Shown here piece by piece: positions 2,878 through 55,761 of a DNA stretch of 61,672 bases; within the stretch, counting starts at the first letter, position 1, and each line of letters begins with the position of its first letter. The position numbers were made by a program, and so were the translations under genes. This stretch comes from a virus, in the IMG/VR virus record IMGVR_UViG_3300025073_000054, positions 1-61,672 of that record, one strand, 5' to 3'. The notes under the pieces are model-generated. The model saw only the letters and a list, made by a program, of their open reading frames with translations, was not told the DNA's origin and searched no databases.

Positions 2878-3035
2878 GCGGCCCCCGGGGCGTCGCACGG
2901 CGGCAACGGGCCGTCGCCCGGTGCCCCGTCGGGCGCACGCCAGTGCCCATCGGCGAGGCGCCTGCGGTGGCAGCGGGCGCAGGTGTGCGACCGCGGGCCG
3001 GTGGGGAGCCAGCGGTGGGCGTCGAGGGAGGTCAC
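2874..3035 (-). CDS. Small zinc-knuckle-like protein
   Basis: A 53-aa frame from GTG 3035, which overlaps the endolysin stop (GTGA). It has CARCHRRR followed by GHWRAPDG and a later Cys, a pattern seen in HNH-like or zinc-knuckle peptides, but too little is present for a family call. Confidence 0.45.
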   Translation of the reverse strand: MTSLDAHRWLPTGPRSHTCARCHRRRLADGHWRAPDGAPGDGPLPPCDAPGAA

Positions 3036-3817
3036 ACGGCCCCGCTGGGGATGCGGCTGGCGTCGTCGAAGTGCATCAGGTCCGCGGAAGACGCAGCCCC
3101 GAAGTCACAGCCGCCCCACCGCATTCCGCCCACGTCGCAGAGAGCGACCACGACCGCGCGGCGCAGGTCCATCAGCCCCTTCGCCGGGTTGCGGGTCAGA
3201 CGCGGGCGGGCGACCGGCTGGCCCACGACGAGCGGCACCCGGAGCGCCTGGTAGTCGGCCATCACCTGCGCTGGGATCGTGACCCCGGGCAGCGTGTCGG
3301 CCTCGCCCGCGTCGAGATCGTCGACCGCGGGGAAGTACGGCGCGAGGTACACCCGCACCGCCTCGGAGACGACGTGCCAGCGGTCCCACACGCTCGCGGT
3401 GCTCTCGCCAGCGCGGCGGGCGCTGAGGTCGCAGAGCACCCCAGCGGCGGCGCACGCCCGGCCGCAGGCGGCGATGAACGTCTTGCGGACCCCGGGCAGC
3501 TTCGCGCCGGCCGACTCGCCCCCGTAGACCAGCCCGCGGGCGGTGTGCGTGGCGCAGACGGCGTACCCGTTGCGCGAATAGTTGATGTCAATCGCGCGGC
3601 CCTTGCCGTGGTAGCCCGCGCCCTCGCGGTAGCCCCCGACGCCGCGCACGCCATGCCACGCGACGAACGTCGGTTGCTCCGACGCGGGGAGGGTCAGCAT
3701 CTCCTCGAGGTACACATCGCGGAGCGCGGCCTCGACGCGAGCGAGCTTCGCCCCGAAGGCACGGGAGACGCGCGGCGAGCGCCCGAGGAAGGGCGCCGCG
3801 ACGAGGTCGAGCGTCAC
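3032..3817 (-). CDS. M15-family peptidase, probable endolysin
   Basis: A 261-aa protein from GTG 3817 (GTGA overlap). About residues 69-77 carry HxxGxAxD (H70, D77), and a late His sits in a DLMHFDD motif near residue 249. These are the zinc ligands of VanY/L-alanoyl-D-glutamate-type M15 peptidases, which cut peptidoglycan cross-bridges. It lies at the distal end of the late operon beside membrane proteins, the usual endolysin site. No signal peptide is seen, so export would need a holin. Its last conserved His is followed by only about 12 residues. Confidence 0.75.
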   Translation of the reverse strand: MTLDLVAAPFLGRSPRVSRAFGAKLARVEAALRDVYLEEMLTLPASEQPTFVAWHGVRGVGGYREGAGYHGKGRAIDINYSRNGYAVCATHTARGLVYGGESAGAKLPGVRKTFIAACGRACAAAGVLCDLSARRAGESTASVWDRWHVVSEAVRVYLAPYFPAVDDLDAGEADTLPGVTIPAQVMADYQALRVPLVVGQPVARPRLTRNPAKGLMDLRRAVVVALCDVGGMRWGGCDFGAASSADLMHFDDASRIPSGAV

Positions 3818-4443
3818 CGGAACGCCCCCGCTTCGATCAGCTCGGGGTGCGTCGCCCGCAGCCACGCGAGCACGTCCACGGCGATCGTGAGCGGCGGGCA
3901 GAGCCCAGAGGCCATCGTCGTCAGGTGCGACTCGAGCACGCCCCGACCCAGCGCCACCTCGTCGGCCGCGAGGTGGTAGGTCTCGCTCGACAGGGACGCC
4001 AGCGCCCCGTCGAGCGTCGGGAGCATCCCCGTCAGCAGGTAGCCGACGAAGAGCCCCACCGCGTAGGCATCGGCCTCGGCGCGGGCGCGCAGCTCGGGGG
4101 AGGCCACGTAGTCGATGGAGGTGCGGACGGCGCCGCCCTCGTCGAGCTGCTTGTCGTGCTGGAACTCGTGGCTGACCGTCATCGCGTACCGCAGCGGGTC
4201 GGCCACGGCGGCGGGGGAGAGGACGATCACCGTCCCGGCGGGCGTGGGCACGGTGACACTGACGCGGCTGGCGCGCACCTCGAGCTCCGCGGCGAGTCCA
4301 GCGAGGGCGGGCACGGCGCGGGCGAGCGCGGAGAGCATCGCGCGTGCGGCGACCGCGGGCGCATCGTCGGGTGTAACGACGAGGGCGCCGTGCTTGGCGG
4401 CGAGGTGGGCGCCGAGGGCTTCGGAGACGTCGAGGGTCAGCAT
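3814..4443 (-). CDS. Putative zinc metallopeptidase (HExxH)
   Basis: A 209-aa protein; ATG 4443 lies 7 bases inside the preceding gene. Residues 92-96 read HEFQH, the HExxH zinc signature, on a predicted helix, with a downstream Glu/Asp-rich helix that could give the third ligand. No signal peptide or TM is seen. Placement between the DUF6527-like gene and the M15 endolysin suggests a cytoplasmic accessory role late in infection or a virion-associated protease; the substrate is unknown. A chance HExxH match is possible. Confidence 0.5.
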   Translation of the reverse strand: MLTLDVSEALGAHLAAKHGALVVTPDDAPAVAARAMLSALARAVPALAGLAAELEVRASRVSVTVPTPAGTVIVLSPAAVADPLRYAMTVSHEFQHDKQLDEGGAVRTSIDYVASPELRARAEADAYAVGLFVGYLLTGMLPTLDGALASLSSETYHLAADEVALGRGVLESHLTTMASGLCPPLTIAVDVLAWLRATHPELIEAGAFR

Positions 4444-4757
4444 GGGCGGAGGACTCCAGCGGTGAGGTAGCCGTGCCAGCCGCAGCCGTGCGGCGCGGCG
4501 TGGTGGATGGACGGGGAGAGCGAGAGCCCGACGCCGGTGCGCGGATCGCCCGCGGTGACGGTCCACGACGGGCCTCCCGCGCGCGGTCCGACCGGGAGGT
4601 GCGACTGCGACCCGCAGCCGGGGCACGCGAAGATGAAGCCCGCGGGCTCGCGCTCGCTGTTCACCAGCGGCTGCGCGTCGCCCGGCGTCGCCGGATCGTG
4701 GTCGGGGAGGTCTTCGACGATGCGTAGGGGCACCGTGCGTCGGAGGTCGATGGTCAC
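4437..4757 (-). CDS. DUF6527-like protein
   Basis: A 106-aa protein from GTG 4757 (GTGA overlap). A CPGCG motif followed by a P-SWTV strand, then LSLSPSI and a C-terminal GCGWHGYL segment, resembles the DUF6527 arrangement (Cys knuckle, SxSPSI, G-C-x-H-x-x-x). Such proteins occur in phages and defence islands without a proven activity. It is embedded in the lysis/accessory cassette. The family call is from memory of the motif pattern. Confidence 0.5.
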   Translation of the reverse strand: MTIDLRRTVPLRIVEDLPDHDPATPGDAQPLVNSEREPAGFIFACPGCGSQSHLPVGPRAGGPSWTVTAGDPRTGVGLSLSPSIHHAAPHGCGWHGYLTAGVLRPC

Positions 4758-5050
4758 CGGCTGACCTCGTCGTCGAGCGCGGACCAGTCCGTCGCGAGGA
4801 TGTCCGTCTGCGACGCGAGCCACGGGACCAGCTTGCAGTCGACGGTCTTCATCGCGATGAACGGGAGCCACGTCCCGATCGCCGCCGCGCCCTCACGGAG
4901 CGCGAACTCGCGATCGTTGTAGAGGTCGACGTAGCGGATCCACATCCCCTTGCCGTTCCACCCGGCGCGCTGGACGCGGATGCCCCGGCGCATGAAGGCG
5001 AGGGCGGTGCCGAAGTCGAAGCCGCGATCCGCGGCGATGCCAGCGCTCAC
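4754..5050 (-). CDS. Tad2-like (DUF2829) anti-Thoeris protein
   Basis: A 98-aa protein from GTG 5050 (GTGA overlap). It matches DUF2829 along its length: FDFGTALAFMRRG at the start, a GWNGKGMWI block, and the closing PFIAMKT...PWLASQTD block. DUF2829 includes Tad2, which binds and sequesters the cyclic-ADP-ribose-type signal of Thoeris defence. The length is normal for the family. Late-operon placement is somewhat unexpected for an anti-defence gene; other DUF2829 roles are possible. Confidence 0.8.
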   Translation of the reverse strand: MSAGIAADRGFDFGTALAFMRRGIRVQRAGWNGKGMWIRYVDLYNDREFALREGAAAIGTWLPFIAMKTVDCKLVPWLASQTDILATDWSALDDEVSR

Positions 5051-5805
5051 AGCGCACCCCCTTCCGACGCATCCGCAGCGCCCGCATCGGTCACGGGGCC
5101 GCAGTACGCGCGCCCGCCGAGGACGGTGCAGACCCCGCCTACCTGCGAGCACAGGAGATTCCCCGCGACGTGCCAGCGCTGCGACGCGCTGCACACGTGG
5201 GGGCGGTCGTTGATGCAGGTCTGCGCCTCGGGCTGGCAGCCGCTCACGGGAGGGTTGCGCGGACACCCCGCGAGCAGCGCGCCCGCGAGGATCGCGGCGA
5301 CGATGCAGGTGAGCAGCCCGGGGAGGTCGACGCTCCCCCGCTGCCCGTCGTCACGCATCGGCGGCACGACGGTCTGGCGGGCGTGCGGGTCGAAGGGCGG
5401 CTCGCTCTTGCGCGGGTCGACGGTCACCGCGCCGATGACGCGGCGCTGCGCGTCGAAGGCCACGCCGTCCGCGGGCGTCGGGTGCGGCGGCTCGGGGGCG
5501 CGGGTGGCGTGGACGTCGAGCGCGCCCTGCTTCTCCGCAGGGAGGGCGATGCCCAGCGGCGGGAGCGAGGAGCGCGCGGCGGCGTACTCGCGCCACGCGA
5601 CGACGAGCTTGCGGAGGTGCGGCGAGACGGTGCGGATGGCGCGGACGATGAGCGCGCGGCCGGGGTGGGCCTTGGCGTAGGCGTCCCAATGCTCGGGGGT
5701 GTCCCACCACAGCCACCACGACAGGGCGGCGCCGACGATGGGCCAGACGATGAGGGCGAGGATCAACGGCCAGTAGGGCCGCGCGAGGTCGAGGGCGTGT
5801 TGCAT
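5047..5805 (-). CDS. Two-TM protein with internal lipobox; candidate holin/spanin
   Basis: A 252-aa protein from ATG 5805. A hydrophobic segment rich in Trp spans about residues 11-34. After a soluble linker a second hydrophobic run (about 163-180) ends in LLAGC with Cys181, a lipobox. An in-frame Met150 precedes it and could start a separate lipoprotein of about 103 aa. The C-terminus has about eight Cys residues. The position in the lysis cassette and this layout suggest a holin or a nested spanin pair, but no homologous family was recognised. Confidence 0.5.
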   Translation of the reverse strand: MQHALDLARPYWPLILALIVWPIVGAALSWWLWWDTPEHWDAYAKAHPGRALIVRAIRTVSPHLRKLVVAWREYAAARSSLPPLGIALPAEKQGALDVHATRAPEPPHPTPADGVAFDAQRRVIGAVTVDPRKSEPPFDPHARQTVVPPMRDDGQRGSVDLPGLLTCIVAAILAGALLAGCPRNPPVSGCQPEAQTCINDRPHVCSASQRWHVAGNLLCSQVGGVCTVLGGRAYCGPVTDAGAADASEGGAL

Positions 5806-5807
5806 GA

Positions 5808-6689
5808 CTAGGTTCCTTCAGTGAGCGAGAGCGGACCCGCGCCGATCTCTTCGGAGGCGGGGTAGGACATCCACAGTGATTCGGTGCGGCGCTGGCCGCG
5901 GGTGTGGCGGGCGCTCTTGAGGGGCACGTCGAAGTCGACGCGACGCCAGCCCGCGTAGATGTCGTTGTAGAGGTCGGAGGCGTACCCGCTGACGCACACC
6001 CGCGCGCCACGCTCGACCGCCCCGCGGCAGGCGGCGGCGAAGCGATGGTGATCCTCGGTGGACGCGTCGTGGCGGTAGCCCCCGCCACAAGCCATCAACT
6101 CGGGGAGATAGGGCGGGTCGACGTAAACCATCGCGCCCTTACGGCCCCACTTCTCGATGAATGCTGCGCCGTCGATGCAGTCGATCGCCACATTGAGCAT
6201 CGACCGCGCATAGAGGTGGAGCGAATCGAGTTTCGTGGTGGCGCCCGACGGCCCCCACCCGCCCGCGGCGGTGTCGTGGCTGAGGGTGCGGCCCCAATTG
6301 CCGGGTGTTCGGGCGATCCCCGCGAACGCCTGCCGCCCAAGGACCCACACGCGCCGCGCCTCTTCCAGCGGGTCTTCGGAACGCGCCAGTGCCGCCGTGA
6401 ACTCCGTCAGTGAGTAGGGCGTGAGAGAGCACGCGCGCACGAGGTCTTCGGGGCGGTCGCGCAGCACGCGGAAGAACGTCACGAGCCGATCGTCAATGTC
6501 GTTGACCGCACGCCGCTGGTAAGCGGCGGCAGGCACGCGGAAGAACACGCTGCCTGCGCCCATACACGCCTCGACGTAGGTGGTCGCGTGGGCGAAGTGC
6601 GGGACGATCTTCTGGGCATTGGTGCCCTTCCCGCCGTACCGCTGGATCGGCCCGCCGCGGAGCTTCGTGGTATCGAGAGCGGCGTTCAT
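5808..6689 (-). CDS. dam: D12-class DNA adenine N6-methyltransferase
   Basis: A 293-aa protein from ATG 6689 (ATGA overlap). YGGKG (about 18-22) and the following EACMGAGSVFF form the AdoMet site; DPPY (191-194) is the catalytic motif of N6-adenine methyltransferases. Order and spacing fit the Dam/D12 family and the length is typical. It would methylate phage DNA, most likely protecting it from host restriction; the target site cannot be read from sequence. It sits in the late operon, between the receiver-domain protein and the two-TM protein. Confidence 0.88.
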   Translation of the reverse strand: MNAALDTTKLRGGPIQRYGGKGTNAQKIVPHFAHATTYVEACMGAGSVFFRVPAAAYQRRAVNDIDDRLVTFFRVLRDRPEDLVRACSLTPYSLTEFTAALARSEDPLEEARRVWVLGRQAFAGIARTPGNWGRTLSHDTAAGGWGPSGATTKLDSLHLYARSMLNVAIDCIDGAAFIEKWGRKGAMVYVDPPYLPELMACGGGYRHDASTEDHHRFAAACRGAVERGARVCVSGYASDLYNDIYAGWRRVDFDVPLKSARHTRGQRRTESLWMSYPASEEIGAGPLSLTEGT

Positions 6690-7279
6690 GGCGTGGCTCC
6701 GAGCGCGGCGGTGATGTGGTCGACGATGCGTGCGCGGTCGATGGGCTTCCGCATCGCGACCGCGCCCACCTTGTGAGCAGCCGTGTCGAGCGCGTCGGCC
6801 TCTGCCACGCCGCTCATGAGCACGTCACCCTTGCGGCCGATGGCCGCGAGGACGTCGGCGCCGAGCTCGTCGGGCAGCATCAGGTCGCAGAGCACCGCGC
6901 CGCAGTGGTGCAGCGACATGATCCCGCGGGCCTCCGCGCCGCTGCGCGCTTCGTACACCGGCAGCGACAGCGCCTCGCGGAGCATCGCGGCGAGGAGATG
7001 GCGGCAGCCGTCGTGGTCGTCGACGACGAGGATGGAGCGAGAGCGCGCGGCGACGGGGGCGGGCGCGGGCGGCGTGAGGCTGTGCCTGATGCGGTTGCCG
7101 AGCACATCGAGCGTCGGGCCGAAGAGCCGCAGGGTGACGCCGACGACGGCGCCGCCGATGAGCCCACCGACCCAGCCAGGGAGGTGGGAGAGGGACTCGA
7201 TCGCGTGGCCGCCGATGCCGGCCGCGGTGAGCTCCGCGAGGAGCACTGCCCACCAGGGAGAGGGAGCGTGGTCGCTCAC
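6686..7279 (-). CDS. Membrane-anchored response-regulator receiver protein
   Basis: A 197-aa protein from GTG 7279 (GTGA overlap). The N-terminus holds an amphipathic helix and a glycine-rich TM (about 36-54), then a Pro/Ala linker. Residues 82-193 are a receiver domain with the usual residues in place: acidic pair D87-D88, phospho-acceptor D132 in CDLMLP, S156, and K178 in the RKP motif. There is no output domain. The TM portion resembles small phage holin-like membrane segments. It lies directly ahead of the lysis cassette. It may be a phosphorylation sink or a signal-sensitive membrane protein; see findings. Confidence 0.75.
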   Translation of the reverse strand: MSDHAPSPWWAVLLAELTAAGIGGHAIESLSHLPGWVGGLIGGAVVGVTLRLFGPTLDVLGNRIRHSLTPPAPAPVAARSRSILVVDDHDGCRHLLAAMLREALSLPVYEARSGAEARGIMSLHHCGAVLCDLMLPDELGADVLAAIGRKGDVLMSGVAEADALDTAAHKVGAVAMRKPIDRARIVDHITAALGATP

Positions 7280-8271
7280 AGCCTCCGCACCCGTCGCATC
7301 GTCGAGACGCCGTTGATCGTGAGGGGCGTGGCGTTGCCGATGGCCTCGTGCTGCGCGACGCCAGCGGGAGCCCGCGACGCCAGCCAGGCGTAGGTGCACG
7401 TCGCCGCGCCGGGGCTGCCCGGGATCAGCGAGGCGTAGGCCCCGCTCATCGTCGCGAGCCCTGCGTCGCCAAGGAGCGTCGACCACGATTGCGCCCACGC
7501 GAGGGAGCCGTTGATCCACGGCACAGCCGCCAACTGGTAGTTGCCGAGGATGAAGTAGGCATCGCTCGCGGGGACGGTGTACGTGCCCGACGTCGCAATG
7601 GTCGCCGCCGCGCCGCCGTTCAGCGACCATGTGAAGCTCAGGTCATCGGCTGCGATGTCGAGGGCGATCGTGTTGCCGCCGGTCACCACCGCCTGCGTCC
7701 CGAGCTCGACCTTGGCGACCGCACCCGGGCCGGTGATCCCGGTGCGGAGGAAGTACAGGTAGCCGCTGCTGCCCGTCGCATTGACGCCGAGAATCCACCC
7801 GTTGCCCGAGCTCTGGTACGACGCGAGGATCTGCTCCGTCGCGGGCACGGAGTCCTGGTGGAAGCCCACGGCGATGCTCTGCCCACCCGCGAGCGTCGGC
7901 CCGACGGCGGTACCCGGCGACGCCGAGACGATGCCCGACACCGTGTAGGCCGCAGCCGCCGTCATCGGCCCGAGGGTGACGCCGAGGCGGTCGGCGCCGG
8001 CCACGCGCCACGTCCCAGCGACCGCGCTCCACAGGAGTGCGTCGTGGTCGGTGGCGAGGAAGGAGTCACCCGCCGCGGGAGACGCCGGAGCCGCGCCGAG
8101 GGTGCCCGCGCCGTAGGTGCCGCCAGCGCCCGCAGGCCCCGCAGGCCCCGCAGGCCCGGTGGCGCCCGTCGCCCCGGTAGCACCCGCGGCGCCCGTCGCT
8201 CCCGTCGGGCCAGCAGGCCCCACGCCCGGCGCTACGAGCGCGCCGCCGCCGTTCGGATCGATGCCGCTCAC
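7276..8271 (-). CDS. Tail fibre protein with collagen-like repeat
   Basis: A 331-aa protein. After a short leader, about residues 17-48 are Gly-x-y triplets (GPAG, GATG), a collagen-like stalk, followed by a globular Ala/Thr/Ser-rich β domain with no recognised fold. Collagen-like stalks are common in trimeric phage fibres. It is the third gene of a fibre cluster and may be the receptor-binding tip. Its ATG at 8271 overlaps the upstream stop (ATGA). Confidence 0.65.
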   Translation of the reverse strand: MSGIDPNGGGALVAPGVGPAGPTGATGAAGATGATGATGPAGPAGPAGAGGTYGAGTLGAAPASPAAGDSFLATDHDALLWSAVAGTWRVAGADRLGVTLGPMTAAAAYTVSGIVSASPGTAVGPTLAGGQSIAVGFHQDSVPATEQILASYQSSGNGWILGVNATGSSGYLYFLRTGITGPGAVAKVELGTQAVVTGGNTIALDIAADDLSFTWSLNGGAAATIATSGTYTVPASDAYFILGNYQLAAVPWINGSLAWAQSWSTLLGDAGLATMSGAYASLIPGSPGAATCTYAWLASRAPAGVAQHEAIGNATPLTINGVSTMRRVRRL

Positions 8272-54296: not shown

Positions 54297-54712
54297 GCGC
54301 CGCCCGCCAGCTCCCGGCGCGTGTGCTCCCGCTCACGCAATGGGTGTCCGTGGCCGACGTGATGGCCTCCCTGGGACTCCCGAAGCGCACGGCCTACGAC
54401 CATCTGCGCCGCGCCGCTGGACGCGCCCATGGTGCGCGCGGCACGCTCCGCGTCCCTGTCGCCGTCTGGGAGTCCTACGCCTTTACCGCCTTCGGAGGTG
54501 CCTCGTGTCGAGTCGAGTCTACAAGCGCGGCAAGTCGCCGTATTGGCAAGTCGAGTGGTACGACGTCAGCGGTCAACGACACCAGCGAAGCAGCCAATGC
54601 ACCGACCGGGCGGCGGCTCTCGCTCGTCTCCGGGAGTGGGAGCGATCGTCCGCCGATCCGGCCCGTGCAGCCGCGACGGAAGCGACGCTGCGAGACGCCC
54701 TCGACGCCCTGA
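54293..54712 (+). CDS. Excisionase-like helix-turn-helix protein
   Basis: A 139-aa frame from GTG 54293 (GTGA overlap). Residues about 17-60 form a small winged helix (WVSVADVMASLGLPKRTAYDHLRRAAGRAHG), as in excisionases. The last about 70 residues overlap the integrase gene in another frame and look like out-of-frame sequence, so the working part is probably the first half. Position directly before the integrase favours a directionality factor. Confidence 0.55.
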   Translation: MSAARQLPARVLPLTQWVSVADVMASLGLPKRTAYDHLRRAAGRAHGARGTLRVPVAVWESYAFTAFGGASCRVESTSAASRRIGKSSGTTSAVNDTSEAANAPTGRRLSLVSGSGSDRPPIRPVQPRRKRRCETPSTP

Positions 54713-55761
54713 TTGACCTGCGCGCCGAGGAAGCGAAGGCGGGCCGCAAGAGCCATGCGACCGTCGCGTTCTACGTGAAGAAGGCCGGTCACCCGGTGCG
54801 GGTCTTCGGGACCGACGCGCGGATGTCCGATGTGACCGGCCGGTCCATCGACAAGTACATCGCGCGCCGTCGAGGAGAGGACGCCTCCGACTCGACGATC
54901 CACAAGGAGCTCGTGCTCCTGCGATCGGCCTGCGCGCTCGCGGCCCGTCGAGGGCTCTGGCCGCACGACGTCGGCCGCGTCTTCCCCCGCGGATTCTCCC
55001 CGGCCTACGTCCCCCGCACCCGGTGGCTACCGCCCGACGAGGTGAGCGCGCTCCTGCCGCATCTGCCGGTCGACCGGGCCGCCATCGTCGCCTGGATTCT
55101 CGCGACGGGCGCCGAGTGGGCTGCGGTCCAGGGGGCGATGGCGGAGGACCATGACCTGGTCGCGTGGGCGGTGCGGGTCCGCGGCACCAAGCGCTTGGCC
55201 CGCGACCGGGTGGTCCCGCTGTCCTTCGCGTGGCAGCGGGAGCTGGTCGCGTGGGCGCTCGAGCACGCCCGGTCGGCCGGCGCGCGGATGCACCGCCCCT
55301 GGGGCAACGTCCGCCGCGACCTCCACCGCGCGTGCGACCTCGCCCAGATCGACCCGTGCTCCCCGCACGACCTGCGGCGCACCTTCGCCCACTGGCTGCG
55401 GTCGGAGGGCGGCTCCCCCTCGACGGTCGGCGCGGCGCTCGGCCACCGGGACGGGCGCATGGCGGAGCGGGTGTACGCCAAGCTGGGGCCGGAGGAGCTG
55501 CGGTCCGCAGTGTCCCGGGAGTGTCACAACAGTGTCCGGGATTCTGCGAAACCGACCGCACCGCTCGCACTCCCTGCATTGCGAGATCGGCGGAAAAGAG
55601 CGGGAAACGCGGTGCCCAGAGACGGAGTCGAACCGCCGACACGGGGATTTTCAATCCCCTCTTCGGGCATCGTCATTCGCTTGCCAGCAAGCCCTTTCGT
55701 GAAGGCCGCAGCAGGCGACGTCACGACAGTGTCCGGTCCCCGCCTGCGCGTCGCCCGATGA
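54505..55761 (+). CDS. int: Tyrosine integrase
   Basis: A 418-aa protein from GTG 54505 with GGAGG about 6 bases ahead. An N-terminal arm-binding part (YKRGKSPYWQVEWYDVSGQR) and SAM-like core-binding helices precede the catalytic domain: HDLRRT (His288, Arg291), ALGH (His314), RVYAKL (Tyr324), and Lys229 in GTKR. The first Arg is absent: the motif reads TGAEW (201-205). From about residue 368 the frame runs through attP, so its last 50 residues change on integration. Confidence 0.85.
   Translation: MSSRVYKRGKSPYWQVEWYDVSGQRHQRSSQCTDRAAALARLREWERSSADPARAAATEATLRDALDALIDLRAEEAKAGRKSHATVAFYVKKAGHPVRVFGTDARMSDVTGRSIDKYIARRRGEDASDSTIHKELVLLRSACALAARRGLWPHDVGRVFPRGFSPAYVPRTRWLPPDEVSALLPHLPVDRAAIVAWILATGAEWAAVQGAMAEDHDLVAWAVRVRGTKRLARDRVVPLSFAWQRELVAWALEHARSAGARMHRPWGNVRRDLHRACDLAQIDPCSPHDLRRTFAHWLRSEGGSPSTVGAALGHRDGRMAERVYAKLGPEELRSAVSRECHNSVRDSAKPTAPLALPALRDRRKRAGNAVPRDGVEPPTRGFSIPSSGIVIRLPASPFVKAAAGDVTTVSGPRLRVAR
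55508..55515 (+). repeat. Integrase arm-site candidate 1
   Basis: CAGTGTCC occurs here, at 55530-55537 and at 55727-55734, all in the same orientation and flanking the core at 55611-55659. Arm-binding integrase sites have this layout. Confidence 0.5.
55530..55537 (+). repeat. Integrase arm-site candidate 2
   Basis: Second copy of CAGTGTCC, extended to ACAGTGTCCGG as in the copy at 55726-55736. It is 73 bases left of the core. Confidence 0.5.
55611..55659 (-). other. attP: attP core: 3' half of tRNA-Phe
   Basis: Read on the minus strand these 49 bases give a complete anticodon arm (GGGGA stem, loop with GAA anticodon), a 5-base variable loop, a T arm and the acceptor 3' strand ending in CC. 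The 5' half of a tRNA is missing, so this is not a working gene. It is the site by which the phage integrates at, and restores, a host tRNA-Phe gene. Confidence 0.85.
55727..55734 (+). repeat. Integrase arm-site candidate 3
   Basis: Third copy of CAGTGTCC, 68 bases right of the core, within the last codons of the integrase gene. Confidence 0.5.

Follow-up and report, generated by a model that had tools for sequence, protein, structure and literature searches.

We identified, in an environmental contractile-tailed phage, a protein in which a complete receiver (REC) domain follows a putative membrane hairpin at the N-terminus, the two being fused, and whose gene lies between tail-fibre genes and a candidate endolysin. 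In our judgement there is an even chance that this protein, TM-REC, acts as a host-phosphorylatable switch on the phage lysis machinery, fused to its membrane partner. Receivers also occur beside lysis genes in unrelated marine phages, which suggests that in some phages the timing or manner of cell breakage responds to a bacterial phosphorylation signal. In the usual description, the time of phage lysis is set by a clock intrinsic to the holin, and there is a substantial chance that receiver-based control represents a new kind of lysis control. If so, a phosphorylatable receiver wired into lysis cassettes across several phage groups would amount to direct sensing of the host metabolic or stress state, and genes that currently go under the names PhoB or auxiliary metabolic gene would gain a function.

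The window analysed is the whole 61,672-nucleotide record IMGVR_UViG_3300025073_000054, a 61.7-kb environmental virus (GC 72%) that carries sheath, capsid, portal and terminase genes, DnaB and an integrase. The integrase is of the tyrosine type (54505-55761, plus strand; 3.9e-11), which makes a temperate lifestyle possible. The TM-REC gene occupies positions 6686..7279 on the minus strand, exactly as the sequence-only reading had placed it, and encodes 197 amino acids. It has a GTG start at 7279, supported by a homologue on a second environmental contig (L013; IMGVR 3300042549_009633), and its stop codon ends at 6686. The start overlaps the stop of the upstream gene for a collagen-like tail-fibre protein (7276..8271, minus strand; profile searches) within a GTGA, and the stop overlaps the start of the downstream gene for a Dam-type N6-adenine methyltransferase (5808..6689, minus strand; profile searches) within an ATGA. 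Given these 4-base overlaps on both sides, TM-REC is probably co-translated with the fibre genes. Its GC3 (0.93) is like that of the other genes of the phage.

The receiver spans residues 80-195 (6695..7042, minus strand). Pfam Response_reg (PF00072) matches residues 83-189 over profile positions 1-110 of 111 with an E-value of 1.3e-12, at 48.3 bits against a curated cut-off of 30.2; a match by chance is excluded. All five active-site residues are present, based on the sequence, on alignment with the L013 homologue and on comparison of relatives: the acidic pair D87-D88 of the Mg2+ site (7016..7021), the phospho-acceptor D132 (6884..6886), the switch serine S156 (6812..6814) and the conserved lysine K178 (6746..6748), which is followed by a proline (all on the minus strand). 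These are the residues on which the sequence-only reading had based its claim of a complete receiver, and the structure prediction it called for agrees: AlphaFold2 returned a confident alpha/beta REC fold for residues 79-195, with block-mean pLDDT values of about 80-95. The top matches listed in a Foldseek search of the PDB with this model are receivers, with E-values of about 1e-7. The same reading had remarked on a missing output domain, and none was found by Pfam, by other profile searches or in the AlphaFold2 model; the chain ends at REC helix alpha5. TM-REC therefore lacks the C-terminal output domain that would make it a classical DNA-binding response regulator. Like the CheY/Spo0F-type single-domain response regulators (PF00072), it has the receiver fold, the same five active-site residues and no output domain, but it differs from them in its fusion to an N-terminal putative membrane hairpin, in its location in a phage late operon and in lacking a cognate kinase in the phage. 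TM-REC is the only receiver of the phage, and no histidine kinase-type ATPase (HATPase_c) was found among its proteins. Any phosphoryl group would thus come from the host or from a small phosphodonor.

For the first 70 residues, two Gly-rich helices are predicted. Helix 1 (residues 9-30; 7190..7255, minus strand) was modelled by AlphaFold2 with low pLDDT and is weakly hydrophobic (Kyte-Doolittle 1.22). Helix 2 (residues 35-68; 7076..7177, minus strand; hydropathy and AlphaFold2) contains a Gly-rich putative membrane segment at 36-54 (WVGGLIGGAVVGVTLRLFG), followed by an Arg-containing stretch. This segment is the best 19-residue Kyte-Doolittle window of the protein, and its score of 1.52 is marginal: TM-REC ranks 11th among 41 proteins of the same phage, behind several soluble structural and tail proteins, so hydropathy alone establishes no transmembrane segment. 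The most conserved N-terminal block relative to the L013 homologue is itself Gly-rich (LPGWxGGxxGG-(x10)-GPTLDV), and a two-helix hairpin is predicted for the N-terminus of both proteins, with low confidence for TM-REC and better confidence for L013. Membrane insertion of the TM-REC N-terminus is thus plausible, given the Gly-rich block kept in L013, the two adjacent modelled helices and the Arg after the segment. Of the glycine-rich transmembrane segment that had been read from the sequence, the glycine-rich character stands, with the conserved block and the hairpin models in its favour, whereas hydropathy does not mark it as a clear transmembrane helix. The label "holin-like" gained no backing from family searches. 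Searches of the N-terminal half against Pfam and PHROGs gave no family, and no holin family at permissive thresholds; the only matches were weak ones to two PHROGs of unknown function (phrog_1563 and phrog_31856).

In order of transcription, the tail fibres are followed by TM-REC, Dam, a membrane protein, a Tad2-like protein, the gene at 4437-4757, an HExxH protein and an M15-type peptidase. The membrane protein (5047..5805, minus strand) has two strong hydrophobic segments and a LAGC motif before a Cys-rich tail; its counterpart in L013 (8575-9345) adjoins REC directly. Both proteins have an N-terminal transmembrane segment and a second hydrophobic segment that ends in a lipobox-like GC motif before the Cys-rich tail, and neither belongs to a recognised family; we consider this conserved REC neighbour a candidate spanin or holin. 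The Tad2-like protein (4754..5050, minus strand; PF11195, 5.1e-20) may act against Thoeris, and its gene looks like an insertion into the late cassette. The HExxH protein (3814..4443, minus strand), which has a syntenic gene in L013, shows weak similarity to mod_HExxH (1.3e-3) and phrog_13834 and is fast-evolving compared with the adjoining endolysin. The M15-type peptidase (3032..3817, minus strand) is a candidate endolysin with the H/D/H pattern expected of this family (H70..D77..H148), and it scores below the Pfam cut-off. No holin was recognised by family in the cassette. With an endolysin defined by a sub-threshold M15 match plus a motif, the term "lysis cassette" is reasonable, though unproven, for the region around TM-REC. 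The gene had been described as lying directly ahead of the lysis genes: lysis-type genes do follow further on, but the immediate next gene is the Dam methylase, and it is in L013 that REC adjoins the membrane protein.

The L013 contig, reached with the endolysin as query, carries a second such fusion in the same M15 endolysin neighbourhood, the type of case that a search for membrane-receiver fusions beside phage endolysins had been proposed to find. Its protein is 48% identical to TM-REC, aligns from the N-terminus to the end, including the N-terminal block, and keeps all five active-site residues. Both phages share the core order REC, membrane protein, HExxH protein and M15 endolysin; the M15 proteins are 87% identical, the HExxH proteins 33% and the membrane proteins 42-48%. 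By its position, TM-REC fits a group proposed here, the stand-alone RECs of phage lysis cassettes: its gene comes after a tail-fibre gene and only a few genes ahead of the candidate endolysin. In both phages, the fusion links the functions of membrane part and REC in one protein. The ratio dN/dS between the two genes is uninformative because GC3 is about 0.93. The Dam and Tad2-like genes are absent between the core genes in L013. Thus, REC belongs to the shared core, and Dam and the Tad2-like gene look like insertions or cargo. Dam used as query in viral contigs gave no match. With TM-REC as the single query, no close relatives were found in IMG/VR, nor were any found among isolated phages.

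The distinction between core and cargo bears on whether TM-REC might instead be a phosphate sink or decoy. A membrane-tethered REC could drain or block host histidine kinases, keeping host stress responses (envelope stress, dormancy, defence) silent late in infection, and its lysis neighbours would then be coincidental. This possibility draws on the single-domain receiver with a complete active site and no output, on the absence of a kinase in the phage, and on the neighbouring Dam and Tad2-like genes, which are host-conflict genes. However, those two genes are not common to L013, whereas REC and the lysis genes are. A general decoy would also be expected early rather than in a late fibre/lysis operon, and it need not adjoin membrane lysis proteins in lineage after lineage. 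We therefore regard a sink as unlikely.

Receivers beside lysis genes were also found in isolated Alteromonas phages. An idealised receiver query was mostly masked and returned largely host-contaminant records, and was replaced by real receivers, including CheY, used in tblastn; these queries carry no positional information. CheY led to the Alteromonas podovirus R8W, and the R8W REC, together with the receivers found with it, led to H4/4, R9Y1-3, XX1924, PB15, PT11-V19, PT11-V22 and PT15-A5, a set that includes podo-, sipho- and myoviruses. The general layout is a tail fibre, a membrane or coiled-coil protein, a stand-alone REC, and then an endolysin, spanin or holin. Neighbourhoods were inspected in R8W, H4/4, R9Y1, R9Y2, XX1924, PB15, PT11-V22, PT15-A5 and PT11-V19, and REC lies among lysis genes in every one except PT11-V19. 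R8W and H4/4 encode a class II holin, a transmembrane coiled-coil protein, REC (overlapping in R8W), a two-TM protein and the terminase. R9Y1, R9Y2 and the IMG/VR contigs L027-L030 have a transmembrane coiled-coil protein, REC and a lysozyme, while XX1924 and PB15 have an XhlA-like "hemolysin", REC, a DUF5675 or M15 endolysin and a GTA-type holin. In PT11-V22 and PT15-A5, a transmembrane coiled-coil protein, REC, an Rz-like spanin and a two-TM protein occur in this order, and an endolysin is present too. The PT11-V19 REC (L023 3998-4450) is degenerate, having lost the phospho-Asp and the Lys; it still lies beside a transmembrane coiled-coil gene, and the genes downstream of it are unannotated. 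There is some relatedness among the Alteromonas cases, which are therefore not all independent. The lysis-cassette reading made from the sequence alone is thus strengthened considerably by the recurrence of the same kind of gene between tail-fibre and endolysin, spanin or holin genes in unrelated phages, although its holin family identity is not.

The gene upstream of REC in the Alteromonas phages encodes a small single-TM coiled-coil protein or an XhlA-like protein. XhlA-type "hemolysins" are small coiled-coil membrane proteins of lysis cassettes. The XX1924 partner matches the corresponding family (phrog_937, 1.2e-12), whereas TM-REC has no such match, so the parallel with this family is functional only. 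By the positive-inside rule, most partner coiled coils and the fused REC are predicted to be cytoplasmic, opposite to two i-spanin controls; one partner (PT11-V22 ORF29) gave a tie. No homology was detectable between the membrane parts of the fused group (our phage and L013) and the Alteromonas partners. The parallel between the two groups is therefore one of architecture only: the membrane partner is a fused hairpin in our phage, where its transmembrane character is marginal, and in L013, and a separate upstream gene in the Alteromonas phages and in a further environmental contig, G006 (IMGVR 3300042908_000747).

G006 was reached through the capsid protein (MCP 78% identical). At the end of this contig, the stop of a transmembrane coiled-coil gene overlaps the start of the REC gene, giving an unfused pair, and the REC gene is followed by one for a transmembrane protein with a lipobox-like motif. 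The G006 REC keeps the phospho-acceptor Asp and has Arg in place of the Lys. Both G006 and PT11-V19, which lacks the phospho-Asp and Lys, retain the domain in the same place; thus, not every relative depends on phosphorylation. This is what would be expected if the REC fold served a membrane lysis protein as a constitutive module for dimerisation or docking, phosphorylation being vestigial. We think such a scaffold unlikely for TM-REC, considering that the five active-site residues are kept in TM-REC, L013, R8W/H4-4, the R9Y group, PT15-A5 and PT11-V22. Values of dN/dS for REC in the Alteromonas phages (0.08-0.16) show that it is under purifying selection there. Receivers are abundant in bacteria, and one could in principle have been captured from a host by chance and carried along without a selected function. 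Such a capture is extremely improbable, as it is contradicted by conservation: L013 has a full-length divergent homologue with the same neighbours, the Alteromonas group shows purifying selection, and the GC3 of 0.93 is like that of the other genes of the phage.

Several of these Alteromonas genes have been annotated as CheY-like or "response regulator" genes (R8W gp48, H4/4 gp44, PB15, XX1924, V22 gp30, A5 gp11 and R9Y1 gp12). Like TM-REC, they encode a REC located after tail-fibre genes, by membrane coiled-coil and lysis genes; unlike in our phage and L013, where the two are fused, their REC is stand-alone and a distinct gene, in most cases overlapping, encodes the membrane protein. In the publications on R8W, V22 and A5, the gene is interpreted as PhoB or as a metabolic or signalling auxiliary gene, not as a lysis gene. 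In R8W, gp48 was annotated as PhoB and a role in phosphate adaptation was inferred (PMC8228385), whereas in V22 and A5 a CheY-like class II auxiliary metabolic gene was assigned to a host-recognition module, with its neighbours left unknown (PMC7289586, PMC10579305). The Pfam receiver match in R8W gp48 (L018 5013-5474) covers only 4-115 of 153 residues and no DNA-binding domain is present, so PhoB is a mis-annotation. TM-REC could likewise be an auxiliary gene that travels with the tail-fibre (host recognition) module and acts on host physiology or gene expression, unrelated to lysis. The position after the tail-fibre genes favours this, as do the published names (PMC8228385, PMC7289586, PMC10579305), and the order tail fibre, REC and lysis genes also fits travel with a host-recognition module, as argued for V22 and A5 (PMC10579305). 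Still, we assign it a small chance: no DNA-binding domain is present, and REC is flanked upstream by a small membrane partner and on its far side by a spanin, holin or endolysin. No paper tying a receiver to phage lysis was found in the open-access literature.

If TM-REC is a lysis switch, its cytoplasmic REC would be tethered to the inner membrane by the N-terminal helical hairpin, and the protein would be expressed together with the late tail-fibre and lysis genes. REC would receive its phosphoryl group from a histidine kinase of the host or from a small phosphodonor, for example acetyl phosphate, and the phosphorylation state may alter how REC associates with other copies of itself or with a holin or antiholin in the membrane. 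Lysis could then be advanced or delayed by TM-REC according to the state of the host. A more general form, in which two-component signalling feeds straight into the lysis clock, is put forward here as a tentative possibility: a host-phosphorylated receiver, membrane-anchored or membrane-partnered, would gate the holin and make lysis responsive to host physiology or superinfection, in a device that recurs in unrelated lineages in fused and two-gene forms. The idea that the arrangement suits a host with many two-component systems found no footing, as capsid and endolysin scans of bacterial genomes gave no match and hence no host.

A functional parallel exists in phage N4, whose class III pinholin gp63, with its regulator gp62, has a region near the transmembrane segment named the Receiver domain, in which mutations alter lysis timing (PMC12642591). 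As proposed for TM-REC, a cytoplasmic domain is attached to a membrane lysis protein; however, "Receiver" there labels a short conserved region beside the transmembrane segment that is not named CheY-type. We claim no sequence relation and rejected N4 as a relative, the shared name being a coincidence. Other candidates were also set aside. The receiver of Komp_PAO1_1 has an HTH-like tail and looks host-derived. In Bhz63, a regulator annotated as PhoP-like adjoins a gene with a kinase-related annotation and has no annotated lysis genes directly beside it, and MW462191 encodes an annotated PhoP-like regulator with no annotated lysis genes directly beside it and with a tail fibre and an NlpC/P60 peptidase upstream. 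Many receiver matches came from phage records that resemble host chromosome contamination (e.g., "Listeria phage LM 4-11-1" and "Acinetobacter phage MD-2021a"). One further environmental contig, L011 (IMGVR 3300007722_001623), has a terminase 87% identical to that of our phage and a capsid only 47% identical, suggesting that phages of this group exchange modules.
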